Of a stretch of 13,550 nucleotides of DNA, positions 1,309 to 13,550 are shown piece by piece. The DNA lies in assembly GCA_945899335.1 (NCBI GenBank), contig CAMDIP010000019.1:1-13550 (forward strand), read 5' to 3'. A program made the position numbers and the translations under genes. The DNA comes from Bordetella parapertussis (GTDB lineage Bacteria; Pseudomonadota; Gammaproteobacteria; Burkholderiales; Burkholderiaceae_C). Each line of letters opens with the position of its first letter. Position 1 is the first letter of the stretch. The notes beneath the pieces are model-generated. The model saw nothing but the letters and a program-made list of their open reading frames with translations. It was not told the DNA's origin and made no database searches.

Positions 1309-2372
1309 GCAGGCGCTTTGGCGAAGGTCACCACATGATCGACTTCTGCGCGTATGCCTATCCACTCGCCAAGATGATGGTCATGGTGGCTGGGCACATG
1401 GGCCATCAGGGTTTGGCCGCTGTCGAGCAACAGCGTGTACAAAAACTCAGAGCCACGAAAAGCTTTGCGAATGATTTGGGCTTTGACCAGCGCGGCATCG
1501 TCGTGGACGATGTCGTCAGCGCGCAAGAGCACATCACAAGCACCCATCTGCGGTAGTTGCGAATGGGCCGCCATGGTTTCGCGCAATTCACCCAGCGGGG
1601 TGTGAAGCACGACATCATTGCCTTCTTGGCGCATGGTGGCAGGCGCAAACACGCCATGACCGATGAACTCCGCTACAAAGCGGGTGGCTGGTCGGTGGTA
1701 CAGATGGTAGGCGTCGTCCCACTGCTCTAACTTGCCTTGGTGCATCACCCCAATCACATCCCCCAACGCAAACGCTTCCAACTGGTCGTGGGTGACAAAC
1801 AAGGCGGTGGTGTTGGCCATCTTGAGAATAGAGCGCAACTCGTGCGCCAAACGCTCGCGCAAGTCCACGTCCAGATTGGAGAAAGGCTCATCAAGCAAAA
1901 GCAACTGCGGTTGTGGTGCCAAGGCTCGCGCCAAAGCCACCCTTTGCTGCTGCCCGCCCGAAAGTTCGTGGGCGAAACGCTGCCCACTGTTGTCCAATCC
2001 CACCAAAGCCAAGACATCTTTGACGCGGGCACGCTGTCTGTCCAAGGGCCAACGGTGCAAGCCAAACGCGATGTTTTGCGCCACATTCAAATGCGGAAAC
2101 AAGGCATAGTCTTGGAACACCATGCCGATGCGGCGCTCCTCAGGGGGCAGATGGACGCCATTGCCGCTGACAACTACGTCATCAATACAGATCTCACCTG
2201 CGGTGATTTTTTCCAAGCCCGCCACGGCGCGTAGAAGCGTGGTCTTGCCGCAGCCCGAGGGGCCGATCAGCACACCCATCTGGCCTGCTTGCAGCTGCAG
2301 GCTCACGCTGTCAACTGCTGCGACTTGGCGGCCAGGGTAGTGCACTTGCAAAGCGTTGACTTGGAGAAACAT
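1305..2372 (-). CDS. fbpC: Ferric iron ABC transporter, ATP-binding protein
   Basis: Cytoplasmic ATPase driving a ferric-iron importer with the neighbouring FbpB and FbpA. The 355-residue protein has every ABC motif: Walker A GPSGCGKT (37-44), Q-loop Gln87 in FQDYALFP, signature LSGGQ (137-141), Walker B LLLLDEP with catalytic Glu162, and switch His195 in FVTHDQ. The C-terminal 115 residues form the regulatory extension (TOBE-like) usual in the FbpC/CysA/PotA group, and the length is normal for FbpC. I chose the ATG at 2372 because family members begin a few residues before this first strand. The frame stays open upstream to 2588, but that part is antisense to fbpB and looks like nothing in the family. 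No Shine-Dalgarno sequence precedes the ATG; a -10 element lies 6 nt upstream, so translation may be leaderless. Iron is the best-supported substrate given FbpA, but related importers carry other anions. Confidence 0.93.
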   Translation of the reverse strand: MFLQVNALQVHYPGRQVAAVDSVSLQLQAGQMGVLIGPSGCGKTTLLRAVAGLEKITAGEICIDDVVVSGNGVHLPPEERRIGMVFQDYALFPHLNVAQNIAFGLHRWPLDRQRARVKDVLALVGLDNSGQRFAHELSGGQQQRVALARALAPQPQLLLLDEPFSNLDVDLRERLAHELRSILKMANTTALFVTHDQLEAFALGDVIGVMHQGKLEQWDDAYHLYHRPATRFVAEFIGHGVFAPATMRQEGNDVVLHTPLGELRETMAAHSQLPQMGACDVLLRADDIVHDDAALVKAQIIRKAFRGSEFLYTLLLDSGQTLMAHVPSHHDHHLGEWIGIRAEVDHVVTFAKAPA

Positions 2373-2378
2373 GCAACG

Positions 2379-2388
2379 GATTGTAGGC
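2379..2388 (-). promoter_or_regulatory. -10 element of fbpC (GCCTACAATC)
   Basis: Read on the minus strand this is GCCTACAATC, with hexamer TACAAT (one mismatch to TATAAT). Only 6 nt separate the motif from the fbpC ATG, so a start point 6-8 nt after the hexamer would fall at or next to the A of the ATG. No good -35 hexamer is visible. Together with the copy at 2413-2423 it forms an exact 11-bp inverted repeat. Confidence 0.55.
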
Positions 2389-2413
2389 ACCTGACTGTTT
2401 TCATACACCCGCT

Positions 2414-2423
2414 GCCTACAATC
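2414..2423 (+). promoter_or_regulatory. -10 element of fbpB (GCCTACAATC)
   Basis: GCCTACAATC with hexamer TACAAT, 37 nt before the fbpB ATG, predicting a leader of about 30 nt. The best -35-like sequence, CTGACT at 2391-2396, is 20 bp away and weak. The motif is identical to the divergent fbpC element and nearly identical to those before the SET gene and yajC. Confidence 0.55.
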
Positions 2424-2460
2424 TGCTTTTTGACACTGTGTCGCTGACTGCGACGACTCC

Positions 2461-4065
2461 ATGCGCCTGATTTCCTTGCTGCGGTTGTTGGTAATTGTGC
2501 TACTGGCCCTGCCCGTGCTGATGGTGCTGGCTGCTTGGCTGCAATGGAACGACGGCTCAGCCGATATCTTGCTTGGCATGGCCAGCACCGTCTTGCCCAG
2601 CTATGTGGTGAGCAGTTTGGGCCTGTGTTTTTGGGTCGCCATTGGCGTGATCAGTATGGGCAGTGTGAGCGCGGCGGCCGTCACCTTGTTTGACTTCAAG
2701 GGACGACGCAGCTTGGAGTGGGCGCTGCTCTTGCCCTTGGCCATGCCAGCGTATGTGGTGGCTTATGCCTACAGCGATTTTTTGCAATTCAGCGGCCCCT
2801 TGCAAACCGCTTTGCGTGCGTTGTTTGGCTGGCAAGGTGCTCTTTGGCCTGATGTGCGCAGCCTGTGGGGCGCTGCTGCAGTTCTTAGTTTTGCGCTTTA
2901 CCCCTATGTGTATTTGTTGGTGCGTGCCGCTTTGGTGGAACGTGCGCCTCAGTTGATGGAGGCTGCTCGCTTGCTGGGTGCCGATTTGCCGCGCCGTATT
3001 TTTCGCGTAGCGCTTCCTTTGGCACGTCCCGCCATTGCCGCAGGAACGGCTTTGGCGTTGATGGAGACGCTGGCAGATTTTGGCGTCAGCAGCTACTTTG
3101 GCGTGACCACTTTTTCAACCGGTATTTACAAAGCTTGGTTGGTGATGGATGACCGCGTGGCCGCGGCTCAATTGGCGACTTTTTTGTTGCTATTGGTCGC
3201 CCTCATGCTGCGTCTAGAGCAAAAAGCCCAAGCCCGACTGCGCTTTGCCAGTCAGCGCAGCATGGGCCGCGGCGCTGAGTCACAGCCTTTGCAGCTAAAA
3301 GGTTGGCCAGCGGCTTTGGCTTTGCTGCTGTGTGCCATGCCGGTGGTGCTGGGCTTTGTCTTGCCCTTGTTGATCATGTCCCATGCCCTGTGGGTGCATA
3401 GCCAAAGCATGTGGATTGATTGGCTGACATTTTCAGTCTGGATGGGCAACAGCTTGTATCTGGGCTTGTTAACCGCCTTGTTGGCTGTTGGCATGGCGCT
3501 GTCCTTGGCGTTCAGCCAGCGCGTTCATCCCGGCGTTTGGCAGCGCTTGAGCACACAGGCCGTTGGTTTGGGCTATGCCGTACCTGGCGTCATCATCGTG
3601 GTGGGCTTGTTGCTGCCCATTGGCTGGTTGCAAAAAACTTGGCCACAAAGCCAAGCAGGCTACTGGTTGACTGCCACCATCTTGGGCTTGGTTTGGGCCT
3701 ACCTTGTGCGCTTTATCGCAGTGGCACTGCAAGCGGTGCAAACCGGCTACACCCGCATCCCCATCAGCACAGATGAGGCATCTCGCACCTTGGGAGTGTT
3801 TCGCACCGCCTTGTTCACCCGCGTGCATTGGCCTTTGCTTAAACGCTCTACCGCCGCGGCCCTGTTGTTGGTGTTGGTGGATGTGATGAAAGAGCTGCCT
3901 GCCACCTTGGTGCTGCGCCCCTTTAATACCGACACCTTGGCGGTCATGGCCTACCAGTTGGCCAGAGATGAGCGCCTTGGGGAAGCGGCCCTGCCTTCGC
4001 TGGCACTGGTGTTGGTGGGTCTATTACCCGTCATGCTTTTGAGCCGAACCTTGCGAAAAACCTGA
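2461..4065 (+). CDS. fbpB: Ferric iron ABC transporter, fused permease
   Basis: Inner-membrane channel of the ferric-iron importer. The 534 residues contain two permease halves in tandem, as in FbpB/SfuB/HitB, with about 12 hydrophobic helices. Each half carries the cytoplasmic EAA loop that docks on the ATPase: EAARLLG at residues 167-173, and DEASRTLG at 438-445 in the second half, each followed by a basic segment and a Pro/Leu stretch. A hydrophilic linker near residues 250-280 separates the halves. The ATG at 2461 leads straight into the first helix, which is normal for the family; no clear Shine-Dalgarno sequence precedes it. fbpC is divergent across 88 bp and fbpA starts 84 bp downstream. 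The more usual order is one fbpA-fbpB-fbpC operon, so this locus appears rearranged. Confidence 0.93.
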   Translation: MRLISLLRLLVIVLLALPVLMVLAAWLQWNDGSADILLGMASTVLPSYVVSSLGLCFWVAIGVISMGSVSAAAVTLFDFKGRRSLEWALLLPLAMPAYVVAYAYSDFLQFSGPLQTALRALFGWQGALWPDVRSLWGAAAVLSFALYPYVYLLVRAALVERAPQLMEAARLLGADLPRRIFRVALPLARPAIAAGTALALMETLADFGVSSYFGVTTFSTGIYKAWLVMDDRVAAAQLATFLLLLVALMLRLEQKAQARLRFASQRSMGRGAESQPLQLKGWPAALALLLCAMPVVLGFVLPLLIMSHALWVHSQSMWIDWLTFSVWMGNSLYLGLLTALLAVGMALSLAFSQRVHPGVWQRLSTQAVGLGYAVPGVIIVVGLLLPIGWLQKTWPQSQAGYWLTATILGLVWAYLVRFIAVALQAVQTGYTRIPISTDEASRTLGVFRTALFTRVHWPLLKRSTAAALLLVLVDVMKELPATLVLRPFNTDTLAVMAYQLARDERLGEAALPSLALVLVGLLPVMLLSRTLRKT

Positions 4066-4091
4066 ATTTTTCATGGTTTTTTGATCGATCG

Positions 4092-4114
4092 CAAATGCGA
4101 ATAGTTCGTATTTG
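4092..4114. promoter_or_regulatory. Fur-like operator before fbpA
   Basis: An imperfect 23-bp palindrome with arms CAAATGCGAA and TTCGTATTTG around TAG; 9 of 10 arm positions pair. It resembles the inverted-repeat Fur box of the form AAATGAGAAT-n-ATTCTCATTT, agreeing at about 17 of 21 core positions by eye. It covers the region just upstream of the fbpA -10 hexamer, where a repressor would block RNA polymerase. Iron repression through Fur is the natural control for an iron importer, but that is inference. Another dimeric regulator could use the same site. Confidence 0.55.
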
Positions 4115-4117
4115 ATC

Positions 4118-4123
4118 TATGAT
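4118..4123 (+). promoter_or_regulatory. -10 element of fbpA (TATGAT)
   Basis: TATGAT has one mismatch to TATAAT and lies 4 bp after the Fur-like palindrome, 26 nt before the fbpA ATG. No good -35 hexamer is seen at 16-18 bp. It differs from the TACAATC motif used by four other genes here, which fits separate control of fbpA. Confidence 0.45.
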
Positions 4124-4133
4124 GAAGCTTCAT
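4122..4133. repeat. Perfect 12-bp palindrome at the fbpA start point
   Basis: ATGAAGCTTCAT is its own reverse complement. It overlaps the end of the -10 hexamer and covers the predicted transcription start (about 4130). It could be a second operator half or chance; nothing else in the window repeats it that I noticed. Confidence 0.4.
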
Positions 4134-4137
4134 TGAC

Positions 4138-4143
4138 AGAGAG
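4138..4143 (+). promoter_or_regulatory. Ribosome binding site of fbpA
   Basis: AGAGAG ends 6 nt before the ATG at 4150. It is a modest Shine-Dalgarno match but supports that start, which also gives a complete signal peptide. Confidence 0.45.
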
Positions 4144-4149
4144 CTCATC

Positions 4150-5217
4150 ATGTTTTCCAAGTTGGTTTTTGCTGGTTTTACCCGTCGCGCCTTAGTTGCT
4201 TTGGCTTTGTTGGCCAGTTTGAGCGGCGCAAGCCTTGCGCAAGAGGCAGAGCTGAACCTGTATTCCGCCAGACACTATGCCACCGACGAGGCCTTGTACG
4301 CCGACTTCACCCGCGCGACCGGCATTCGCATCAACCGTGTGGACGCAGATGATGCCGGCATTTTGTCGCGCCTAAAAGCTGAGGGCTCGGCCTCGCCTGC
4401 CGATGTGATTTTGTTGGTGGATACCGCGCGTTTGTGGAAAGGCGAAGTCGAGGGCTTGTTCAAACCGATCCATTCAAAGTTATTGGAAAAGGCCATTCCT
4501 GAGCACCTGCGCGCCCGTACCCGCACAGAAGGGACATCTTGGTTTGGCTTTTCAACACGTGCGCGTGTCATTGTGTACGACAAATCGCGGGTCAAGCCAG
4601 AAGACGTTGACAGCTATGAAAAGCTCGCTTTGCCTGTGAACAAAAACAAGCTCTGCGCTCGCTCGGGCTCTCATCCCTACAACCTGTCATTGTTCGGCTC
4701 TATGGTTGAGCATCTTGGCGCACCCGCCACCGAGGTTTGGCTCAAAGACTTGGTGGGCAATATGGCGCGCAGCCCCAAAGGCGGCGACACAGACCAAATC
4801 AAAGCGGTGGGCAGTGGTGAGTGCGGCATAGCGCTTGCCAATTCTTACTATGTGGCGCGTCTGCTGCGCTCTGGAGCACAGCAAGACCAAGCGCTGATGC
4901 AGCGTGTTGGGGTTATTTTCCCCAACCAAGCAAGCTGGGGCACGCACATGAACATAGCAGGCGGCGCGGTGGCCCAATATGCCAAACACCCCGCCAACGC
5001 GCAAAAGTTTTTGGAGTACTTGGCCAGCCCCTCCGCCCAAAGCTATTTTGCCGACGGCAACAACGAGTGGCCGGTGGTCAAGGGTGTGCAAATCAACAAC
5101 CCCGCTTTGCAAGCCATGGGCGGGGTGAACTTCAAGACAGACCCCTTGCCCGCGAGCTTTATTGGCATGAACCAAATCAAGGTTCAGCAAATGCTCGACC
5201 GCGTTGGGTTTCGCTGA
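4150..5217 (+). CDS. fbpA: Periplasmic ferric iron-binding protein
   Basis: Substrate-binding protein that delivers Fe3+ to FbpB/FbpC. The 355-residue precursor begins with a Sec signal peptide: charged FTRR, hydrophobic ALVALALLASL, then a likely signal peptidase I cut after ALA (SLA|QEA, residues 30/31). The mature protein opens with the family motif NLYSARHY (36-43), and the adjacent tyrosines Y233-Y234 in NSYY match the iron-binding tyrosine pair of FbpA/FutA proteins. C169 (in NKLCARS) and C225 (in GECGIAL) are the only cysteines noted in the mature part and may form a disulfide. It has its own promoter and a Fur-like operator, so it can be induced apart from fbpB. It converges on the 61-residue membrane-protein gene, with 15 bp between stops. 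Ligand identity is family inference; a minority of close relatives bind organophosphates or sugars phosphates. Confidence 0.92.
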   Translation: MFSKLVFAGFTRRALVALALLASLSGASLAQEAELNLYSARHYATDEALYADFTRATGIRINRVDADDAGILSRLKAEGSASPADVILLVDTARLWKGEVEGLFKPIHSKLLEKAIPEHLRARTRTEGTSWFGFSTRARVIVYDKSRVKPEDVDSYEKLALPVNKNKLCARSGSHPYNLSLFGSMVEHLGAPATEVWLKDLVGNMARSPKGGDTDQIKAVGSGECGIALANSYYVARLLRSGAQQDQALMQRVGVIFPNQASWGTHMNIAGGAVAQYAKHPANAQKFLEYLASPSAQSYFADGNNEWPVVKGVQINNPALQAMGGVNFKTDPLPASFIGMNQIKVQQMLDRVGFR

Positions 5218-5232
5218 TGCAACAACGGCGTA

Positions 5233-5418
5233 TTACGGACGCGGATTTACAGACTTCAGACGCAGCGCCTCGGGGCTCAACTGCTCTTCCACGCGCTGCG
5301 GTTCACGCGGGTCGTTAGGCGCCCAGCCCAACACGCGCAGCCCGCCATGTGACCACGCCCAAAACAGCACATTTGCAATCACCAAAGCCAGTGCCAGCGC
5401 GGTGATGTATTTCCTCAT
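5233..5418 (-). CDS. Small membrane-anchored protein, SPOR-protein N-terminus without the SPOR domain
   Basis: A 61-residue protein of unproven function. Residues 4-22 (YITALALALVIANVLFWAW) form one transmembrane helix after a short basic start, and the rest is a soluble tail. The tail contains REPQRVEEQLSPEALRL, which resembles, from memory, the segment after the membrane anchor of a SPOR-domain protein often coded near birA and coaX in Comamonadaceae. Here there is no SPOR domain and no coaX: the frame stops 15 bp before the end of fbpA. The ATG is certain because it overlaps the birA stop (ATGA), with AGGTG a few bases upstream inside birA. It is the last gene of the SET-birA operon. It may be a decayed SPOR protein or a functional short anchor; the identification is tentative. 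Confidence 0.65.
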   Translation of the reverse strand: MRKYITALALALVIANVLFWAWSHGGLRVLGWAPNDPREPQRVEEQLSPEALRLKSVNPRP

Positions 5419-6233
5419 GCGACACCTGCTGTCAGACGAACACTGACCTCGTCGCTGCTGACCGCGATGCGGCCGTGGGCGGCGTCGACTTGCAACACGC
5501 CACGGGCGTCCACACCGCAAGCCACGCCCTCTTGCCCATTGCTTAACCGCACGGCCTGACCGCGCAACACATCGCGCTGATCAAACTTGGCTTTGAATGG
5601 CGCAAAGCCTTGAACTTCAAACAAGCGCAGGCCATCCACCAAGGGGGCAATCAAGCGCTGCAACACTTCGGGTGGCAGCAAGGCCTCGCCCAGCCATTCG
5701 CGCAAACCTGCTGCGGGCGTACTTAATTCGCTGTCCAAAGGCCCATGCAGGTTGATGCCAATGCCAATCACTGTGTAGCGCGAAGCGCTGTTATCGCCCG
5801 CAACCCACACAGTTTCAATCAGCATGCCCGCCAGTTTTCGCGGCGCTTGGGGCGCACCTACCCACACATCGTTAGGCCACTTCAAACCCAGGCCAAGGCT
5901 TTGCTGCGGGTCTAACGCCTCGGCCATGCACACCCCAACCGCCAAGGACAGCCCAGACCAATCGGGCGGGGCCAACATCAGTCCCAAAGAAAAGGTGAGC
6001 GCATCAGCGCGCTGCCCCTGCCAAGTGCGGCCCTGCCGTCCTCTGCCCGCGCTTTGTTGCTCGGCCACCAACAGACAAGGGCGGGTGTCGCCAAGACGAG
6101 CACGGCGCATGAGTTCGCTGTTGGTGGAATCGATGGTTGGCAATACCTCGACATGGGCCAGATCGGCCAAAGGCTTGACCGCAGCTTGCAACGCTGTCAG
6201 CGGCCAATGCAAGGGAGCATTGCCAGCGCGCAT
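5415..6233 (-). CDS. birA: Biotin--[acetyl-CoA-carboxylase] ligase
   Basis: Activates biotin with ATP and attaches it to the lysine of the biotin carrier protein of acetyl-CoA carboxylase. The 272-residue protein has the biotin-adenylate loop GRGRQGRTW (63-71), KWPND (118-122), KLAGMLIE (133-140) with the conserved lysine, and GIGIN (157-161). A small C-terminal domain follows (about 225-272). The N-terminus has no helix-turn-helix of the E. coli type, so this is a ligase without repressor function. The ATG at 6233 shares its A with the stop of the SET gene (TGATG), indicating translational coupling; a TTG three bases earlier is less likely. The 3' end overlaps the next gene by ATGA. birA is often followed by coaX (type III pantothenate kinase) in this group, but not here. 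Confidence 0.95.
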   Translation of the reverse strand: MRAGNAPLHWPLTALQAAVKPLADLAHVEVLPTIDSTNSELMRRARLGDTRPCLLVAEQQSAGRGRQGRTWQGQRADALTFSLGLMLAPPDWSGLSLAVGVCMAEALDPQQSLGLGLKWPNDVWVGAPQAPRKLAGMLIETVWVAGDNSASRYTVIGIGINLHGPLDSELSTPAAGLREWLGEALLPPEVLQRLIAPLVDGLRLFEVQGFAPFKAKFDQRDVLRGQAVRLSNGQEGVACGVDARGVLQVDAAHGRIAVSSDEVSVRLTAGVA

Positions 6234-6697
6234 CAAGACTTAGGGGATAGCAAGGTGCCGCGACACACGCGGGAGCCGCAATGGCAAGGGTAATCGGCCA
6301 GCAAAGTGGCGGTGTAAGGCTCGTCAATCACCAAGCCGTAGTCGTAATTGATTTCTTCACCCGCTTTGATTTTGCGCAGTGTGCGGATGAAAATGCGCTC
6401 ACCGGCTTCATCGGCCTCGCAGTTGGGCGCGCAGGAGTGGTTGATCCAGCGCGCATCATTGCCGCCATAAAGTGCATCAATCACATGTTTTTTGCTGACA
6501 TGGAAGTAAAACGTGTGGTGCGGGTCTTTAGGATTGTGGGGGTGGCGCTTTTGCGCTTTTTTCCAACTGATAACCTCACCGATGTATTCGATCAGAATCT
6601 CGCCTTTGGCGATGTCTGTCAGGGCAAACACCCCTTTGCCGTGAACGCCTGAGCGGCGCACCTGAATGCGTTTACCGCTGTTGCTAGAAGAGGTCAT
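6233..6697 (-). CDS. SET-domain protein-lysine methyltransferase
   Basis: A compact 154-residue S-adenosylmethionine-dependent lysine methyltransferase; its substrate cannot be read from sequence. It is almost only a SET domain. It shows the N-terminal SxxHGKGVFA (16-25) with the Gly pair of the cofactor site, the family signature RWINHSCAPNC (83-93), GEEINYDY (113-120) with catalytic-type Tyr118/Tyr120, and a post-SET CxCx4C (C138, C140, C145) that with C89 can hold a zinc ion. All catalytic elements are present. I chose the ATG at 6697 because the domain starts 8 residues later; an in-frame extension to 6799 has no family likeness. It leads the operon SET-birA-small membrane protein and is divergent from topB. 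A 14-codon leader ORF overlaps its ATG. SET proteins in bacteria are known to methylate histone-like or ribosomal proteins. Confidence 0.92.
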   Translation of the reverse strand: MTSSSNSGKRIQVRRSGVHGKGVFALTDIAKGEILIEYIGEVISWKKAQKRHPHNPKDPHHTFYFHVSKKHVIDALYGGNDARWINHSCAPNCEADEAGERIFIRTLRKIKAGEEINYDYGLVIDEPYTATLLADYPCHCGSRVCRGTLLSPKS

Positions 6698-6738
6698 GGG
6701 AGCCTGTTGGAAAATTCTGATATGTTGAATACGTACAT
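6694..6738 (-). CDS. Possible 14-residue leader ORF overlapping the SET start
   Basis: An ATG at 6738 opens a 14-residue frame, MYVFNISEFSNRLP, whose TGA overlaps the ATG of the SET gene (ATGA). It lies within the predicted SET leader (start point about 6758). No Shine-Dalgarno sequence precedes it, and the SET start itself has only a weak one. The arrangement could couple translation of the two, as at the two later junctions of the operon, but the peptide is unremarkable and coincidence is possible. Confidence 0.3.
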   Translation of the reverse strand: MYVFNISEFSNRLP

Positions 6739-6755
6739 GTGCGCGTGCGCGCGCG
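6729..6755. repeat. 27-bp alternating purine-pyrimidine tract (Z-DNA candidate)
   Basis: Every base from A6729 to G6755 alternates purine and pyrimidine. The first 10 bases are mixed ATACGTACAT, and the rest is GC/GT dinucleotides ending in eight bases of CG repeat. Such tracts flip to left-handed DNA under negative supercoiling. It lies between topB and the SET gene, inside the predicted SET leader and upstream of the topB ribosome binding site. Confidence 0.8.
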
Positions 6756-6763
6756 AGACGACA

Positions 6764-6773
6764 GATTGTAAGC
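6764..6773 (-). promoter_or_regulatory. -10 element of the SET-birA operon (GCTTACAATC)
   Basis: The minus strand reads GCTTACAATC with hexamer TACAAT, 66 nt before the SET ATG. The predicted start near 6758 gives a leader of about 60 nt that begins with the CG-rich alternating tract. A -35 would lie inside the first codons of topB; no good match is seen. Confidence 0.5.
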
Positions 6774-6780
6774 AAGGAAG
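6774..6780 (+). promoter_or_regulatory. Ribosome binding site of topB
   Basis: AAGGAAG ends 6 nt before the ATG at 6787. It is the best Shine-Dalgarno match among the genes here and fixes the topB start. I could not pick a convincing topB promoter in 6698-6773. Confidence 0.75.
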
Positions 6781-6786
6781 AATTGC

Positions 6787-9741
6787 ATGAGTAAAACACT
6801 GGTCATCGCCGAGAAGCCCTCTGTGGCACAAGACATCGTTCGCGCCTTGACGCCAAGCGCAGGCAAGTTTGAAAAGCACGACGATCATTTCGAGAACGAC
6901 ACCTTTGTGGTCACCAGCGCGGTGGGCCATTTGGTGGAAATCCAAGCGCCCGAGGAGTTTGATGTCAAACGCGGCAAGTGGAGCTTTGCCCACCTGCCGG
7001 TCATCCCGCCTTACTTTGACTTGAAGCCGGTGGAGAAAACCAAGTCGCGCCTGTCGGCGGTGGTCAAACAAGCCAAGCGCAAAGACGTGAGCGACATCAT
7101 CAACGCCTGTGACGCGGGGCGCGAGGGTGAGCTCATCTTCCGATTGATAGAGCAATACGCCGGCGGCAAAAAACCTTTGGACAAACCTGTGAAACGGCTG
7201 TGGCTGCAGTCCATGACGCCACAAGCCATCCGCGACGGTTTTGGCAGCTTGCGCACCAGCAAACAAATGCAAGGCTTGGCCGACGCCGCGCGCAGCAGGT
7301 CGGAAGCCGATTGGCTGGTCGGCATCAACGGCACCCGCGCCTTCACCGCGTTCAACTCCCGCGATGGCGGGTTCTTCCTGACCACCGTCGGTCGGGTGCA
7401 AACACCCACCCTGTCGGTGGTGGTTGAGCGTGAAGAACTGATCCGCAAATTCATCAGCCGCGACTACTGGGAAGTCCACGCCAGCTTTGCAGCCGCCGCA
7501 GGTGCGTATGCCGGCAAATGGTTCAACCCCACGCACAAAGCCAACGCCGACGACAAAGAAATCAAGGAAGACCGTGTTTGGACATTGGGCGAAGCGCAAG
7601 CCATTGCCGAGGCGGTGCGTAACCAAACCGCCACGGTGACGGAGGAAAGCAAACCCAGCAGCAAGGGCAGCCCCGGCCTGTTCGACCTGACCACCTTGCA
7701 GCGCGAGGCCAATGGCCGCTTTGGCTTCTCGGCCAAAACCACGCTGTCGCTGGCGCAAAGCCTGTACGAGCGCCACAAGGCCTTGACCTACCCGCGTACC
7801 GACTCCAAGCACCTGCCCGAGGACTACCTGCCCACCGTCAAAGAGACCATGCAAATGCTGGCTAACAGCGGCATGGGGCACCTCGCGCCGTTTGCCAAAA
7901 CCGCCATCGCGCAGGGTTACATCAAGCCCAGCAAAAAGGTGTTTGACAACGCCAAGGTCAGCGACCACTTTGCCATCATCCCCACACTCGAAGCACCCAG
8001 CGGTTTGTCCGACGCCGAGCAAAAGCTGTACGACTTTGTGGTGCGCCGCTTCATCGCTGTGTTCTACCCCGCCGCGCAATTCATGGACACCACCCGCATC
8101 AGCCAAGTAGCAGCTGCGGGCAAAACCCACCACTTCAAAACCACTGGCCGCGTGTTGGTGGAGCCGGGTTGGCAAGCCATTTACGGCAAAGAGGTGGATG
8201 AGGAAGAAGACAAAGAGTCCGGCAAGATTTTGGTGAAACTCAATGCGGGCGAAAAACCCAAAGTGTCTGAGGCCGACCCCAAAGGCCTGAAAACCCGCCC
8301 ACCGGCGCGCTACACCGAGGCGACCCTTTTGGGCGCGATGGAGGGTGCTGGCAAAACCGTGGAAGACGACGAGCTGCGCGAAGCCATGCAAGAAAAAGGC
8401 TTGGGCACGCCTGCCACACGCTCGTCCATCATTGAGGGCTTGCTGAACGAAAAATACATGTTGCGCGAAGGCCGTGAGTTGATCCCCACCGCCAAAGCCT
8501 TCCAGCTGATGACGCTGCTGCGTGGTTTGGGCGTGGAAGAGTTGTCACGCGCCGACCTGACCGGCGACTGGGAGTTCAAGCTCTCGCAAATGGAAAAAGG
8601 CCAGTTGTCGCGCGAAGACTTCATGAAAGACATCGCCGAGATGACCGCTCGCATGGTGAAAAAAGCCAAGGAATACGACCGCGACACCATCCCTGGCGAC
8701 TATGCCACCCTCACCACGCCCTGCCCCACATGCGCTGGCGTGGTGAAAGAAAACTACCGCCGCTACACCTGCATCGGCAAAGCCGGTGCAGTGGCCACCA
8801 CCAATGCAGACGGCGAGATTGAAGGCCCAGGCTGCGGCTTCTCGTTTGGCAAAACACCGGCAGGCCGCACCTTTGAGCCCACCGAGGTGGAGCAGTTTTT
8901 GCACGACAAAAAAATCGGCCCCTTGGAAGGTTTCCGCTCCAAAGCCGGTTGGCCTTTCACCGCCGAAATTGCGCTCAAGTTCAACGAGGAAGAAAAAAAC
9001 TGGAAGCTGGAGTTCGACTTTGGCGACGACAAAAACGCCGAGAGCGGCGAGATTGTGGAGTTTGGCGAGGCCGAGAACTTGGGCGCTTGCCCCAAGTGCG
9101 GTTCTGCGGTGCACGAGCACGGCGCCAATTATGTGTGCAGCAAATCTGTGCCCACCATCGCCCAGCCCACGCCGAGCTGCGACTTCAAAAGCGGGCGCGT
9201 CATCTTGCAACAGGTGATTGAGCACGACCAAATCAAAAAACTGCTGGCTGAGGGCAAAACCGATTTGCTGGAGAAATTTGTCTCCATGCGCACCCGACGT
9301 GCCTTCAAGGCCTACCTGAGCTACGACGCCGAAGCCGGCAAGGTGAGCTTTGCGTTTGAGCCCAGCAAGTACCCGAAAAAAGGCGGCGCACCCACCACCC
9401 GCGCCTTGGTGAAAGCAGCGGGCAAAACCATACCCGGCAAAAAGACGCCTGCGGCCAAGAAAGCTGCAGCGAAAGTTGCCAAAGACCCCAAACCCAAAGC
9501 CCCGCGCAAAACCGCAGCCGGCAAAGCACCCAGCGCGGCCTTAGCCGCAGTGATTGGCCCCGAGGCCGTGGCCCGCACCGAGGTGATGAAAAAACTGTGG
9601 GACTACATCAAGGCAAATGGCTTGCAAGACCTCAAAGACAAACGCACGATTCAGTGCGACGCCAAACTCAAAACCGTGTTTGGCAAGGACAGTGTGGGGA
9701 TGTTTGAGTTGGCAGGGTTGATTGGGGCGCATTTGAGTTGA
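6787..9741 (+). CDS. topB: DNA topoisomerase III with C-terminal zinc ribbons, Lys-rich tail and SWIB domain
   Basis: Type IA topoisomerase that passes single strands through a transient nick and decatenates DNA. At 984 residues it is about 330 longer than E. coli TopB. Order of parts: Toprim domain with AEKPS (8-12) and DAGREGE (109-115); GRVQTPTL (202-209); active-site Tyr335 in TYPRTDS; the rest of the core to about 640; two zinc ribbons (C646, C649, C662, C683 and C768, C771, C784, C798); a Lys/Ala/Pro-rich tail (about 879-918) like histone H1; and a SWIB domain (about 931-984) beginning TEVMKKLWDYIKANGLQD. DAGREGE in place of DPDREGE occurs in other TopB proteins. SWIB domains are known from eukaryotic chromatin remodellers and from chlamydial topoisomerase I. 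It is divergent from a SET methyltransferase and 152 bp upstream of yajC. Confidence 0.96.
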   Translation: MSKTLVIAEKPSVAQDIVRALTPSAGKFEKHDDHFENDTFVVTSAVGHLVEIQAPEEFDVKRGKWSFAHLPVIPPYFDLKPVEKTKSRLSAVVKQAKRKDVSDIINACDAGREGELIFRLIEQYAGGKKPLDKPVKRLWLQSMTPQAIRDGFGSLRTSKQMQGLADAARSRSEADWLVGINGTRAFTAFNSRDGGFFLTTVGRVQTPTLSVVVEREELIRKFISRDYWEVHASFAAAAGAYAGKWFNPTHKANADDKEIKEDRVWTLGEAQAIAEAVRNQTATVTEESKPSSKGSPGLFDLTTLQREANGRFGFSAKTTLSLAQSLYERHKALTYPRTDSKHLPEDYLPTVKETMQMLANSGMGHLAPFAKTAIAQGYIKPSKKVFDNAKVSDHFAIIPTLEAPSGLSDAEQKLYDFVVRRFIAVFYPAAQFMDTTRISQVAAAGKTHHFKTTGRVLVEPGWQAIYGKEVDEEEDKESGKILVKLNAGEKPKVSEADPKGLKTRPPARYTEATLLGAMEGAGKTVEDDELREAMQEKGLGTPATRSSIIEGLLNEKYMLREGRELIPTAKAFQLMTLLRGLGVEELSRADLTGDWEFKLSQMEKGQLSREDFMKDIAEMTARMVKKAKEYDRDTIPGDYATLTTPCPTCAGVVKENYRRYTCIGKAGAVATTNADGEIEGPGCGFSFGKTPAGRTFEPTEVEQFLHDKKIGPLEGFRSKAGWPFTAEIALKFNEEEKNWKLEFDFGDDKNAESGEIVEFGEAENLGACPKCGSAVHEHGANYVCSKSVPTIAQPTPSCDFKSGRVILQQVIEHDQIKKLLAEGKTDLLEKFVSMRTRRAFKAYLSYDAEAGKVSFAFEPSKYPKKGGAPTTRALVKAAGKTIPGKKTPAAKKAAAKVAKDPKPKAPRKTAAGKAPSAALAAVIGPEAVARTEVMKKLWDYIKANGLQDLKDKRTIQCDAKLKTVFGKDSVGMFELAGLIGAHLS

Positions 9742-9743
9742 GG

Positions 9744-9812
9744 TCGTCATTGCGTTAATTCGTCATTGCCAGGGGCTTTAGCCCCGAAGCAAGGACAGCG
9801 CCATCCAATGAC
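9744..9812. repeat. REP-like palindromic repeat between topB and yajC
   Basis: TCGTCATTGC occurs twice as a direct repeat (9744-9753, 9760-9769). From 9762 to 9812 a 51-bp unit is bounded by GTCATTG and its complement CAATGAC, with an inner palindrome GGGGCTTTAGCCCC (9772-9785) followed by GAAGCAA. This matches the layout of the small dispersed CGTCATTGC...GAAGCAA repeats of many proteobacterial genomes, as I remember them. The inner stem lacks a T-run, so it is not a standard terminator, though it may protect or pause the topB transcript. Confidence 0.55.
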
Positions 9813-9832
9813 TGAATCTTGTAATGACCACG

Positions 9833-9864
9833 TTGGCATGCAGAAAACCCAACCGCATACAATC
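9833..9864 (+). promoter_or_regulatory. Promoter of yajC-secD-secF
   Basis: The -10 motif GCATACAATC (9855-9864, hexamer TACAAT) is 29 nt before the yajC start. TTGGCA at 9833-9838 differs by one base from TTGACA but is 19 bp away, slightly long. A start near 9870 gives a leader of about 24 nt. Confidence 0.6.
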
Positions 9865-9881
9865 GCCGGTTGCCCGAATTT

Positions 9882-9885
9882 GGAG
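9882..9885 (+). promoter_or_regulatory. Ribosome binding site that fixes the yajC start
   Basis: GGAG lies 8 nt before the GTG at 9894. It argues for that GTG and against an in-frame TTG at 9870, which lies at the predicted transcription start. Confidence 0.65.
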
Positions 9886-9893
9886 AATTTACT

Positions 9894-10226
9894 GTGTTCA
9901 TTTCATCTGCCTACGCCCAATCCGCACCCGCCGCCACCGCCGGTGGTGACCTCGGTTCCTCGCTCATGAGCATGCTGCCTTTGGTGTTGATGTTTGTGGT
10001 GCTGTATTTCGTCATGATCCGCCCCCAAATGAAACGCCAAAAAGAACTCAAGGCCATGCTCGACGCATTGGCCAAGGGCGACGAAGTGGTCACCTCGGGC
10101 GGCATGTTGGGCAAGATCGCCCAACTGGGCGACAACCAAATTGGTTTGGAAGTGGGCAACGGCGTGACACTGCAACTGCAGCGCTCAGCGGTGGTGCAAG
10201 TGCTGCCCAAAGGCAGCATCAAATAA
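9894..10226 (+). CDS. yajC: Preprotein translocase subunit YajC
   Basis: Small inner-membrane partner of SecD and SecF in the holo-translocon. The 110-residue protein starts with GTG: a short N-terminus FISSAYAQSAPAA, one transmembrane helix (about 26-46, SMLPLVLMFVVLYFVMI), the family motif RPQMKRQKELKAM just after it, then a small cytoplasmic domain with GDEVVTSGGMLGKI. Length and layout match E. coli YajC (110). The start is set by GGAG at the right spacing. It begins the yajC-secD-secF operon, with 21 bp to secD. In many proteobacteria queA and tgt precede yajC; here topB does instead, and yajC has its own promoter. Confidence 0.96.
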   Translation: MFISSAYAQSAPAATAGGDLGSSLMSMLPLVLMFVVLYFVMIRPQMKRQKELKAMLDALAKGDEVVTSGGMLGKIAQLGDNQIGLEVGNGVTLQLQRSAVVQVLPKGSIK

Positions 10227-10247
10227 TTTAACACTGACGCCTGCGCC

Positions 10248-12143
10248 ATGAACCGTTACGCCATTTGGAAATACCTGGTCATCCTGATCGCTTTTTGCGT
10301 GGGTGGCTTGTACACCGTGCCCAATTTCTTTGGCGAAGCACCGGCGGTACAAGTTTCTCCTGCCCGAGCCAGCGCCAAGGTCGACACCGCCACCTTGGGC
10401 AAAGTGGAAGAGGCGCTCAAAGCCGCGTCGCTCACACCCACCTTGATCGGCCTTGAAAACAACTCGCTCAAAGCGCGGTTCGAAACCACCGAACAGCAAC
10501 TTCAAGCCAAAGACGCCATGCAACAGGCGCTCAACCCTGATGCGGCCAACCCCGCGTATGTGGTGGCGCTGAACTTGATACCGCGCACGCCCACTTGGTT
10601 GTCGACCTTGAATGCTGCACCTATGTACCTGGGTCTGGATTTGCGCGGCGGTGTGCACTTCATGTTGCAAGTGGACATGCAAGCAGCTCTGACCAAAAAG
10701 CTCGACTCTTTGAGCGGCGACTTGCGCAGCGCTTTGCGCGAAAAAAACCTGCGCCACAACGGTATTTCTCGCGAAAAAGAAACGATTCTGATGGGGTTTC
10801 GCGACCAAGCCACAGCTGATGCGGCGCAATCGCTGATGCGCGACCAGTTCCCCGATTTGGCGTCTACCCTCAACCCGCAAGGCGATGAAGTCAAGCTCAG
10901 CGCCAGCTTGAAACCCGAAGCAGCACGTCGCGTACAAGACCAAGCCCTCAAGCAAAACATCACCACGCTGCACAACCGTATCAACGAGCTGGGTGTGGCT
11001 GAACCCGTCATCCAGCAACAAGGCTTAGACCGCATCGTGGTGCAGCTCCCCGGTGTGCAAGACACCGCCAAAGCCAAAGACATTTTGGGTCGTACGGCAA
11101 CCCTTGAAATCCGCATGGTTGAAGAAAGCAGCGAAGCACGTTTGGCCGAGGTGGGCAGCGGCGCCGTGCCTTTTGGTGCGGAAAAATACCTGGACCGCAA
11201 TGGCCAAGCGGTGATTGTGAAAAAGGTCGTGGTGCTGACGGGCGAAAACCTGACCGACGCCCAACCCGGCTTTGACAACCAAACACAAGAAGCGGCGGTT
11301 CACCTGACCTTGGATGCCAAAGGCGCTCGCATCTTCAAAGAAGTCACCCGTGAAAACGTGGGCAAGCGCATGGCCATCTTGCTGTTTGAAAAAGGCAAAG
11401 GCGAAGTGGTGACCTCTCCCGTGATTCGCAGCGAAATTGGCGGCGGTCGGGTGCAAATTTCAGGTCGCATGACCACCGTGGAAGCTGCGGACACCTCATT
11501 GCTGCTGCGTGCTGGTTCCCTGGCCGCACCCATGGAAATCATCGAAGAGCGCACCATTGGCCCAAGCTTGGGTGCTGAGAACATCGCCAAAGGCTTTGAC
11601 AGTGTCACTTGGGGCTTTGTCGCTGTTACCGCCTTCATGTGCCTTTATTACGCCTTGTTTGGCGTCATCTCCAGCATTGCACTGGCAGTGAATTTGCTGT
11701 TATTGGTGGCGGTGCTCTCTATGCTGCAAGCCACGCTCACGCTACCAGGTATGGCGGCCATGGCACTGGTGCTTGGCATGGCGATTGACGCCAACGTTCT
11801 GATCAATGAACGGGTTCGCGAAGAACTGCGCAACGGCGCGGCACCGCAAACCGCCATCCACATGGGCTACGACCGTGCGTGGTCAACGATTTTGGACTCC
11901 AACGTCACCACCTTGATCGCTGGTTTGGCGTTGTTGGCCTTTGGCTCGGGACCGGTGCGCGGTTTCGCGGTGGTGCATTGTTTAGGCATTCTCACCAGCA
12001 TGTTCTCAGCGGTGTTTTTCTCGCGCGGCTTGGTCAACCTTTGGTATGGCCGCCAAAAACGTTTGCAAACCGTCTCGATTGGCACGGTGTGGAAGCCTGA
12101 CGCCACCACCCAAGACGTGATTGCCAAAGCCAAAGCCGATTAA
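10248..12143 (+). CDS. secD: Protein translocase subunit SecD
   Basis: Inner-membrane protein that with SecF uses the proton gradient to pull preproteins out on the periplasmic side. The 631 residues match the family (E. coli 615). One transmembrane helix lies at about 7-25, followed by a large periplasmic region with the P1 motif LGLDLRGGVHF (128-138) and then five C-terminal helices (about 450-610). Asp514 in GMAIDANVLINERVREE is the conserved charge in the proton path. The periplasmic part also has GRTATLEIRMVEE and EIGGGRVQISG, typical of the substrate-gripping head. The ATG follows yajC by 21 bp and has no strong Shine-Dalgarno sequence. secF starts 12 bp after its stop. Confidence 0.97.
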   Translation: MNRYAIWKYLVILIAFCVGGLYTVPNFFGEAPAVQVSPARASAKVDTATLGKVEEALKAASLTPTLIGLENNSLKARFETTEQQLQAKDAMQQALNPDAANPAYVVALNLIPRTPTWLSTLNAAPMYLGLDLRGGVHFMLQVDMQAALTKKLDSLSGDLRSALREKNLRHNGISREKETILMGFRDQATADAAQSLMRDQFPDLASTLNPQGDEVKLSASLKPEAARRVQDQALKQNITTLHNRINELGVAEPVIQQQGLDRIVVQLPGVQDTAKAKDILGRTATLEIRMVEESSEARLAEVGSGAVPFGAEKYLDRNGQAVIVKKVVVLTGENLTDAQPGFDNQTQEAAVHLTLDAKGARIFKEVTRENVGKRMAILLFEKGKGEVVTSPVIRSEIGGGRVQISGRMTTVEAADTSLLLRAGSLAAPMEIIEERTIGPSLGAENIAKGFDSVTWGFVAVTAFMCLYYALFGVISSIALAVNLLLLVAVLSMLQATLTLPGMAAMALVLGMAIDANVLINERVREELRNGAAPQTAIHMGYDRAWSTILDSNVTTLIAGLALLAFGSGPVRGFAVVHCLGILTSMFSAVFFSRGLVNLWYGRQKRLQTVSIGTVWKPDATTQDVIAKAKAD

Positions 12144-12155
12144 AGAAAGCCTGAC

Positions 12156-13115
12156 ATGGAATTTTTCAAAATCCGCAAAGACATCCCGTTCATGCGCCAT
12201 GCTTTGGTGTTTAACGCGATTTCGTTGATCACCTTTTTGGCGGCGGTGTTTTTCCTCTTCAGCCGTGGATTGCATTTGTCGGTGGAGTTCACCGGCGGCA
12301 CCCTGATGGAGGTCAGTTTTGCACAACCTGCGCCGCTTGAACCCATGCGCGAGCGCATTGCGGCCTTGGGCATCAACGATGTGCAAGTGCAAAACTTTGG
12401 CTCTTCGCGCGATGTGCTGATCCGCATGCCTGCCGCCAAAGGCAGCAACACCGCCGAGCTGAGCAACAAAGTGTTTGGCAGCCTTAAAGAGATGGACGCC
12501 AGCGCCGAGTTGCGCCGCACCGAGTTTGTCGGTCCGCAAGTGGGCGACGAGCTGGCCATCGATGGCCTCAAGGCCTTGGCCTGTGTAGTCATTGGCATCA
12601 TGATTTATTTGGCCATTCGCTTTGAATGGAAATACGCGGTGGCGGGCATCATTGCCAACTTGCACGATGTCATCATCATCTTGGGCTTTTTTGCTTACTT
12701 CCAGTGGGAGTTTTCGCTGCCCGTGCTGGCTGCGGTGCTGGCGGTCTTGGGCTATTCAGTGAACGAGTCGGTGGTGATTTTTGATCGGGTACGAGAAAAC
12801 TTTCGCCGATTCCGCAAAATGAACACGGTCGAGATCATCGACAACGCCATCACTTCCACCATCAGCCGAACCATCATCACCCACGGCTGTACCCAATTGA
12901 TGGTCTTGTCCATGCTGCTGTTTGGTGGCGCCACATTGCACTACTTCGCCATGGCGCTGACCATCGGTATTTTGTTTGGCATTTATTCTTCAGTGTTTGT
13001 GGCCGCTGCGATTGCCATGTGGCTGGGTATACGCCGTGAAGACTTGATCAAACCGGTGAAAAAAGACGGCCCTGAAGAAGACCCGAACGACCCTAACTCG
13101 GGTGCAGTGGTTTAA
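12156..13115 (+). CDS. secF: Protein translocase subunit SecF
   Basis: Partner of SecD in the Sec accessory complex. The 319-residue protein (E. coli 323) has a first transmembrane helix at about 18-37, the periplasmic motif LSVEFTGGTLMEV soon after, and five further helices. The signature GYSVNESVVIFDRVREN (199-215) includes conserved Asp210 and Arg211. Its C-terminus is hydrophilic and acidic (GPEEDPNDPN). AAAGAAAG before the ATG is a weak ribosome binding site. It ends the yajC-secD-secF operon and converges on smg with 6 bp between stops. Confidence 0.97.
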   Translation: MEFFKIRKDIPFMRHALVFNAISLITFLAAVFFLFSRGLHLSVEFTGGTLMEVSFAQPAPLEPMRERIAALGINDVQVQNFGSSRDVLIRMPAAKGSNTAELSNKVFGSLKEMDASAELRRTEFVGPQVGDELAIDGLKALACVVIGIMIYLAIRFEWKYAVAGIIANLHDVIIILGFFAYFQWEFSLPVLAAVLAVLGYSVNESVVIFDRVRENFRRFRKMNTVEIIDNAITSTISRTIITHGCTQLMVLSMLLFGGATLHYFAMALTIGILFGIYSSVFVAAAIAMWLGIRREDLIKPVKKDGPEEDPNDPNSGAVV

Positions 13116-13121
13116 GCCTGC

Positions 13122-13550
13122 TCAGTGCGCGATGCGCGACTCTTGGTCGTCGCACAACTCATCGAGCACCAGCGCATCGGGTTCGATGCCAGCACTCCAG
13201 TAAACCATCAAGACGATGATTTTCAAGTCGTCTAAGCTGATGGGGTGGGTGGTCACTGCCATGGCGCGGTCCACCACAATCTCGCGCACCTGAGGTGGCA
13301 AGACGCCTGCACCTTCCATGAAGGTGATAAAGCCCAGTCCGGCGGCACCCAACTGCTGCTGCTCATTCACAGAATACACACGCATGCTGATGGGTGACTG
13401 CACATACGCAGTTTCCCAAGCAGTTTTGGGTGCATTGATTTGAATGGTTTCGGCATTGTTGGCAGCGGTGTGTAAGCCCGCGAGCCAAGACAGCGCTTGC
13501 TCTATTTCGTCGGCGTCAAAGCCGGCGGCACTGAGTTTGCGTCCTAAGAG
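13122..13550 (-). CDS. smg: Smg family protein, DUF494 (N-terminus missing)
   Basis: The frame is open to the last base, so the start lies beyond the window; a GTG at 13403 is internal. The 142 visible residues match E. coli Smg along their length: LSAAGFDADEIEQALSWLAGL aligns with the [22 protein letters not shown] region, SPISMRVYSVNEQQQL with DPLSMRIYTPEECERL, and LDDLKIIVLMVYWSAG with LEDLKWVILMVLFNIPG. About 25 N-terminal residues are missing. Its molecular role is unknown. In many proteobacteria smg sits with dprA/smf and a gene for a topoisomerase or its zinc-finger relative; dprA would be expected upstream, outside the window, and topB is 3.4 kb away here. Confidence 0.92.
   Translation of the reverse strand, partial: LLGRKLSAAGFDADEIEQALSWLAGLHTAANNAETIQINAPKTAWETAYVQSPISMRVYSVNEQQQLGAAGLGFITFMEGAGVLPPQVREIVVDRAMAVTTHPISLDDLKIIVLMVYWSAGIEPDALVLDELCDDQESRIAH

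Follow-up and report, generated by a model that had tools for sequence, protein, structure and literature searches.

A conserved, Z-DNA-prone alternating tract between divergent topB and SET-domain genes in a family of Burkholderiales

What holds a gene for a SET-domain lysine methyltransferase and a gene for a topoisomerase back to back in a bacterial genome? The question is raised by a 13,550-bp stretch of DNA from Bordetella parapertussis (assembly GCA_945899335.1, contig CAMDIP010000019.1, positions 1–13,550 of the forward strand; hereafter the window), in which SET lies divergent from topB, the gene of DNA topoisomerase III, and is followed on its other side by birA, the gene of biotin–protein ligase. 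TopB itself ends in a lysine-, alanine- and proline-rich tail and a SWIB domain. A first-pass annotation, made from the letters of the window, had suggested that the two neighbors may be enzyme and substrate. Comparison across genomes directs attention to the DNA between them, and this conserved, Z-DNA-prone control region is the most interesting part of the locus.

The divergent gene pair and the tract in its gap

In the window, SET (6233–6697, minus strand) and topB (6787–9741, plus strand) are separated by a divergent control region of 89 bp (6698–6786), which is delimited by the two start codons and aligns with the gaps of 13 relatives. The region contains a perfect alternating purine–pyrimidine tract of 27 nt (6729–6755), the longest such run in the window and a Z-DNA-prone one by prediction. 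The first-pass description of an intact SET gene divergent from topB across 89 bp is borne out by the coordinates, the match to PF00856 and the sequence motifs, which agree.

The pair is maintained across a wide set of relatives. Among the best 80 of 584 SET loci obtained by a scan of genome contigs, TopB lies divergent beside SET in 74, the other six ending at a contig edge, and BirA lies on the other side of SET in all 80 (2.4 kb away in L027). In a draw of 150 genomes from the family of Limnohabitans lacus (genome G001, the source of L017), SET is present in 140 (E 1e-30), SWIB in 148 and a beta-type topB in 145 (E 1e-200). SET and topB are divergent within 1 kb in 133 of the 138 genomes having both; four of the remaining five carry the genes on different contigs and one carries them 8 kb apart. 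Additionally, of the 70 family loci that have SET, 68 also contain birA. The SET–topB adjacency in the family is far beyond chance, and topB and SET, together with birA, form a nearly fixed divergent gene pair of this Comamonadaceae-type family of Burkholderiales.

The gap between the two genes is conserved in a distinctive manner. An alignment of the window gap with those of the 13 near relatives contains long invariant blocks, including one of perfect purine–pyrimidine alternation. The longest alternating run was scored in 157 topB–SET gaps, up to 130 nt before topB; it reaches at least 16 nt in 126 gaps, at least 20 nt in 85 and at least 24 nt in 69, where dinucleotide-preserving shuffles lead to expectations of 4.35, 0.53 and 0.025 gaps. 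By source, runs of at least 16 nt are found in 67 of 74 loci from the genome contigs, in 50 of 71 loci drawn from the family and in 7 of 9 further loci of the same family, and among the other three gaps those of the window and L174 reach 16 nt and that of L210 does not. The longest tracts extend over 41–47 nt (L146, L136 and L156, from G283, G265 and G297). The letters of the tract differ widely between lineages, and the alternation stays.

Runs of this length are rare elsewhere. Across 65 loci of at least 9 kb, no run exceeds the tract in 49; it ranks second or third in 9 and falls below 16 nt in 7; other runs of at least 20 nt occur at 0.009 per 10 kb over 1.135 Mb. A 22-nt alternating pattern finds a match in 26 of 28 family genomes, most of them chosen for a long tract, with 0–29 overlapping matches per strand. 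In the seven genomes whose matches are listed in full, these fall in one to six places each, and the topB–SET gap is always one of them: a single place in G206, G221 and G283 (the opposite-phase count leaving room for one more in G206 and G283), two in G093 and G286, four in G253 and six in G130. The other rare alternating runs, at 11 places in the five genomes examined, are flanked by open reading frames for which no pattern is claimed. Outside the family, none of 19 topB loci (L161–L180 without L174) has a run longer than 11 nt within 200 nt upstream.

The form of this conservation points to the alternation itself. Stems within the tracts measure 5.13, against 5.03 in alternation-preserving shuffles, 17 of 100 of which reach that value; because the stems are no longer than in the shuffles, it is alternation, not a hairpin, that is kept. 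Moreover, in the 14-sequence alignment none of the 5 variable columns in the tract is class-crossing, compared with 19 of 30 in the flanks. In most sampled family members the tract is kept for alternation more than for its exact letters, and selection on the tract is well supported by these sequence comparisons.

Several observations weigh against this interpretation. When the column comparison is extended to six gap clusters, class-crossing columns number 15 of 52 in tracts and 127 of 213 in flanks, a count that is partly circular, as the tract columns were picked for alternation; one cluster has 13 of 22 class-crossing columns, and the window's own cluster has 1 of 6 with these bounds. The longest run is shorter than 16 nt in 31 of the 157 gaps, and two of the 28 family genomes lack any 22-nt match. 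In one clade without SET (L082 and L201–L203), in which topB and birA adjoin each other, the tract is missing and the runs measure 6–9 nt. The loci are also related, so that counts across loci and gaps are not independent. In the other clade without SET, runs of 17–21 nt are present in six of eight members.

Z-DNA propensity and a possible torsion switch

The B–Z threshold of each gap was predicted with the dinucleotide energies (Table 1) and the cost of 5 kcal/mol per junction given in PMC3024258. The model considers a single site in a 5-kb domain, the superhelical constant and the junction twist being set independently of that paper. Predicted thresholds of 155 gaps have a median superhelical density (sigma) of −0.022. 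Against a background of 986 tiles, 137 of the 155 gaps exceed the 99th centile, and none of the 986 reaches the gap median. For the window tract the predicted sigma is −0.0215, and the 204 other window tiles are all less prone to Z-DNA. As a long CG/CA/TG-rich run with a low predicted threshold, the window tract has, under this model, the sequence features of a Z-DNA-forming element.

The position of the tract suggests how such a property could be used. In the twin-domain model, negative supercoils add up between two outward-facing genes. Transcription leaves negative supercoils behind the polymerase (PMC3024258), and outward transcription of topB and SET would accordingly drive them into the gap. 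There, once a moderate threshold is passed, the tract would flip from B-DNA into the Z form, absorbing or signaling torsion, and the expression of topoisomerase III and of SET–birA would thereby follow local superhelicity. Because a Z-prone tract here lies between outward-facing genes, one of them a topoisomerase gene, it may best be read as a torsion sensor or buffer. That the gap is a Z-DNA-prone, supercoiling-sensitive control element of a divergent topoisomerase promoter has, in our judgment, close to an even prospect of being right. The more specific proposal, a B–Z torsion switch that would act as a natural, family-wide supercoiling sensor and make topoisomerase III and a histone-type methyltransferase respond to the torsion arising from their own divergent transcription, is put forward as tentative.

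Two points count against a control element of this kind: a promoter scan of window positions 6600–6900 found no sigma-70-like site, and topoisomerase III is known mainly as a decatenase, which makes a tie to bulk supercoiling less than evident. The tract could also be kept for a reason other than Z-DNA, as a degenerate protein-binding site, a stiff G+C-rich promoter spacer or part of an mRNA leader. G+C-rich promoter discriminators matter for supercoiling sensitivity. Discriminators have been studied as determinants of that sensitivity (PMC8422995). One segment of the region, CGCACATGTACGTAT, hardly varies among the 14 aligned gaps, and Z-DNA formation at the tract is itself a prediction. Against these non-Z explanations stand the wide variation of the tract letters across the family while the alternation persists, and a hairpin potential no higher than in alternation-preserving shuffles; we consider them rather unlikely when taken together.

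Gene order, the TopB tail and the SET substrate

The constancy of topB–SET–birA could alternatively reflect frozen synteny, with no functional tie of SET to topB. In the window, birA (5415–6233, minus strand; TIGR00121, 141.5 bits) begins where SET ends, and the birA start and SET stop codons share one base (TGATG), which is why SET and birA probably form one operon. Across relatives SET retains birA as a neighbor with much the same fidelity as topB, birA being downstream of SET in the 80 of 80 and 68 of 70 loci given above. The loci without SET bear on the same point. A larger family draw of 329 genomes, which includes the first 150, contains SET in 307; absence is called by threshold (E 1e-30), and the 20 listed genomes without SET have at most 3.1 Mb, so that incomplete assemblies may be among them. 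Upstream context is available for 13 SET-less loci. In 12 of them (L081–L084 and L201–L208) birA directly adjoins topB, so that SET can go missing while the rest stays in order; these 12 group into two clades. The thirteenth, L086, comes from a long-branch genome with 41.5% G+C and shows neither SET nor birA in the 2 kb upstream, and L085, L087 and L209 stop at a contig edge.

Outside the family the arrangement loosens. Among 200 genomes drawn from Burkholderiales, SET is present in 47 at E 0.001, of which 37 score at least 140 bits; SWIB occurs in 73, and topB exceeds its cut-off in 98. SET and topB are adjacent but convergent in G008, G057 and G100, and SET lies within 4–17 kb of topB in G060, G098, G133, G135 and G195; in the remaining non-family genomes it is farther away or on another contig. 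For most genomes outside the family SET is thus 4–90 kb from topB, convergent with it or on another contig, as frozen synteny within the family would allow. What speaks for more than inheritance is that the divergent orientation and the short gap are maintained in 133 of 138 genomes, and that the gap carries its own conserved element, which favors shared control and not an enzyme–substrate link. Frozen synteny accordingly retains considerable weight, while falling short of an even chance.

Three side observations concern the distribution of SET itself. The convergent pairs of G100, G008 and G057 (L171, L172 and L173) have gaps of 9–117 bp and TopB tails that are nearly lysine-free, and this lineage represents a separate SET–topB adjacency. 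In L210 (G506) a short SET match alone, at about 1712–1810, lies between topB and birA, and this SET may be decaying. A more distant second SET copy is present in G001 (C12:1724–2155), G288 (C1:721295–721738) and G281 (C1:300496–300933).

The other end of the question is TopB. The Lys/Ala/Pro-rich tail of the window protein spans about residues 858–914 (9358–9528, plus strand; bounds set by eye on the translation) and contains KKTPAAKK and PRKTAAGK, followed by a SWIB/MDM2 domain at residues 915–983 (9529–9735, plus strand; PF02201, 88.6 bits). This layout, also described in the first pass, is upheld by the translation and by the PF02201 and PRK14724 matches. A KAPRK motif occupies residues 904–908 (9496–9510, plus strand), five letters shared with histone H3 residues 14–18. 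Among 98 tails of SWIB-bearing TopBs, 67 have K[AT]PRK directly before SWIB, where shuffled tails lead to an expectation of 0.65, and K.PRK occurs in none of 59 TopBs without SWIB. The tail region of the family relative in G001 scores 21.6 bits against HC2 (PF07382), below the cut-off of 40, and neither HC2 nor Hc1 matches the window TopB at E 0.001.

These features were the basis for the proposal that SET methylates lysines of the neighboring TopB tail, for example in KAPRK, and thereby tunes its DNA binding. The conserved adjacency (133 of 138) is in its favor and, as a weak hint, so is the enrichment of K[AT]PRK in SWIB-bearing tails. The motif is also missing in all four TopBs that retain SWIB without SET, with birA beside topB (L082 and L201–L203), a second weak hint; these four genomes form one clade and therefore count as one event. 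Moreover, K[AT]PRK is present in 22 of 37 SWIB-bearing TopBs of the SET-adjacent family draw and so is lacking in 15 that do have SET, and the TopB of L209 retains the motif with no SET found, though the contig ends there. The lack of K.PRK in all 59 TopBs without SWIB counts against the proposal as well.

The comparison of TopBs argues further against a tie between SET and the tail. It covers 80 of the 145 family topB loci, 79 of them with a complete TopB, and 20 loci from the order draw (one of which, L174 from G130, is a family member), with SWIB on TopB flagged by BLAST. In the 70 family loci with SET in the locus, TopB has SWIB in 37 and lacks it in 33; among seven TopBs from genomes without SET, one has SWIB. 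On the TopB tree (112 rows), SWIB requires four changes, and one large clade holds it in 53 of 61 rows. Another clade of 27 rows has no SWIB in any row and SET in the locus in all 27, and the SET–topB pair is therefore independent of the SWIB fusion. SET changes number only 2 on one tree and 5 on the 112-row tree, too few for significance.

The tails of SET-less loci follow no single course. In the clade of L082 and L201–L203, TopB retains SWIB and 11–12 tail lysines. In the second SET-less clade SWIB is lost, as it is in the SET-bearing L128, and four members retain 9–12 tail lysines, so that lysine-rich tails (9–12 K) persist in 8 of the 12 SET-less birA–topB loci (L082–L084, L201–L203, L205 and L206). 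The other four (L081, L204, L207 and L208; 71–74% G+C) have 0–1 tail lysine and several arginines instead, which may reflect drift after SET loss or an effect of G+C content. Conversely, the SET-adjacent TopBs of L171–L173 have 0–1 tail lysine. The lysine tail thus neither needs SET nor always accompanies it. Co-evolution of SET with the TopB tail was considered and is unsupported, given the 33 of 70 SET-adjacent TopBs without SWIB and the lysine tails without SET, and the suggested link of SET to the tail or to TopB-fused SWIB is likewise unsupported. The genome survey that the first-pass annotation called for bears out a conserved pair and an association of SET with SWIB somewhere in the genome, and shows no link to the TopB tail or to TopB-fused SWIB. 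Methylation of the neighboring tail is, on this evidence, improbable: a neighboring SET and SWIB-bearing TopB need not be enzyme and substrate.

How TopB acquired its C-terminus is suggested by standalone SWIB proteins. When 20 such proteins, taken from 20 genomes, are inspected by eye, about 15 show a clear Lys/Ala/Pro-rich N-terminal tail before SWIB; those of L183, L185, L186, L199 and L200 have a short one. The standalone lysine-tailed proteins have the layout of the TopB end, which is most simply explained by a fusion with one of them, and the TopB tail and SWIB probably arose in this way. The event would be separate from the pairing of SET with topB, and the fused tail and SWIB should add DNA binding to TopB.

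SET itself would then be an endogenous lysine methyltransferase, as predicted from its domain, whose substrate is not set by the topB pairing; its likeliest target may be a nucleoid protein. One form of this idea is that SET modifies a different nucleoid protein, above all a standalone lysine-tailed SWIB or an Hc1/HC2-like protein, with the topB adjacency as inherited synteny. In the 200 order genomes, SWIB is present somewhere in the genome in 31 of 37 with a strong SET match and in 42 of 163 others (Fisher's test, 7e-11, with kinship between genomes ignored), and the standalone SWIB proteins often have H1-like tails. Only two of the 200, G033 and G077, have Hc1-type matches, and both have SET and lack SWIB; with Hc1 in so few genomes, it is ruled out as a general SET partner. 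HC2 matches, in 92 of the 200 at E 0.001 and in 47 over the cut-off, are judged to be largely of low complexity. Enzymatic precedents exist in cpnSET, which acts on chlamydial Hc1, and Go1-SET, which acts on archaeal MC1-alpha (PMC3980110). On the other side, SWIB also occurs in 42 genomes that lack a strong SET match, the co-occurrence test takes no account of kinship, and the Hc1 results are called discordant in PMC6426960. Modification of such a protein is a possibility of some substance, still clearly on the lesser side of even.

It is far less probable, indeed barely credible, that SET works as an injected effector on the histones of a host, the role reported for BtSET. SET is present in 307 of 329 sampled genomes of the L. 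lacus family, whose members are largely free-living, and it stands beside birA. BtSET and LegAS4 are described as host-directed (PMC3980110; PMC10117894), and the window SET does match the LegAS4/AnkI model (NF043024) weakly, at 40.4 bits; the cut-off of that model is 550 bits. As a separate observation, eight SET proteins (P0007, P0011, P0035, P0038, P0054, P0083, P0090 and P0111), several of them named Limnohabitans, carry a C-terminal lysine-rich tail of roughly 40–80 residues, for which self-methylation or DNA binding is possible; the window SET has no such tail.

The window genes and known systems

The window SET gene encodes 154 residues that match PF00856 at 90.8 bits (cut-off 22.4) over profile positions 1–105 of 105, and its start at 6697 coincides with that of a close homologue, P0001. 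The translation contains RWINHSCAPNC, GEEINYDY and CxCx4C; the NHSC core and the post-SET CxCx4C have recognized roles in SET enzymes. The three post-SET cysteines are invariant in a 12-row SET alignment, and NHSC becomes NHAC in one row (P0005). The closest solved structures are MLL-type SET domains (E 5.8e-25), and 6810 homologues are found at E 0.001. Against the near relatives L001–L004, nonsynonymous and synonymous divergences (dN/dS) are 0/0.22, 0.014/0.34, 0.046/0.53 and 0.058/0.78; with dN well below dS in all four, the SET gene is under constraint. Median identity to the window proteins is 74% for SET (80 loci), 50% for BirA (78) and 78% for the TopB core (74). A predicted SET structure, obtained from a shallow alignment, has a mean predicted local distance difference test score of 41.8 and was not used.

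TopB comprises 984 residues and matches NF011313/PRK14724 over model positions 1–988 of 988 at 1802.6 bits (cut-off 1088), with domain matches to Topoisom_bac, Toprim, Toprim_Crpt and SWIB; PRK08173 matches residues 1–898, that is, without the SWIB part. Farther out, window positions 1305–5217 hold an iron-type ABC transporter set, named by eye from the open reading frames, and 9870–13,115 hold yajC, by profile match, followed by secD/secF-like genes assigned by eye; yajC and secD are present in six of the 80 best SET loci.

As a topoisomerase III with SWIB, the window TopB is an ordinary full-length member of PRK14724/NF011313, with no essential difference. A chromatin complex of SET, SWIB and topoisomerase I has been proposed in Chlamydiae (CT737/NUE, CT460 and CT643; PMC6426960). 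As in Chlamydiae, genomes of the present family combine a SET enzyme, a standalone SWIB protein and a topoisomerase–SWIB fusion. Here, however, SWIB is fused to topoisomerase III rather than topoisomerase I, and SET and topB lie side by side in divergent orientation, independently of SWIB. The first-pass remark that no description of such a pair had been seen therefore stands for the gene pair, on which no paper was found in the open-licence literature, and falls for its parts, given PRK14724 and the proposed chlamydial set. BtSET/LegAS4-type proteins have the SET domain in common with the window protein, which scores below the LegAS4/AnkI cut-off and lies in a housekeeping neighborhood.

The tract resembles the Z-DNA-forming sequences of PMC3024258 in its alternating CG/CA/TG composition, its position upstream of start codons and its low B–Z threshold; that survey concerns mouse genes, whereas the present case is one bacterial locus, family-wide, at a topoisomerase gene. 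Possible topological control of a topoisomerase gene is a likeness to the regulated topoisomerase genes of Streptomyces coelicolor (PMC5055605), from which the locus differs in that the role of sensor is proposed here for a Z-prone tract lying between divergent promoters. The open-licence literature yielded no paper on the SET–topB pair, nor any on a Z-DNA tract beside a topoisomerase gene in bacteria. Alternation kept at a topoisomerase gene in more than 100 genomes provides a direct, testable natural case for the question of whether Z-DNA has natural regulatory roles in bacteria. If the proposed reading is true, the tract may let the cell sense the twisting of its DNA at the very place where a topoisomerase is made.

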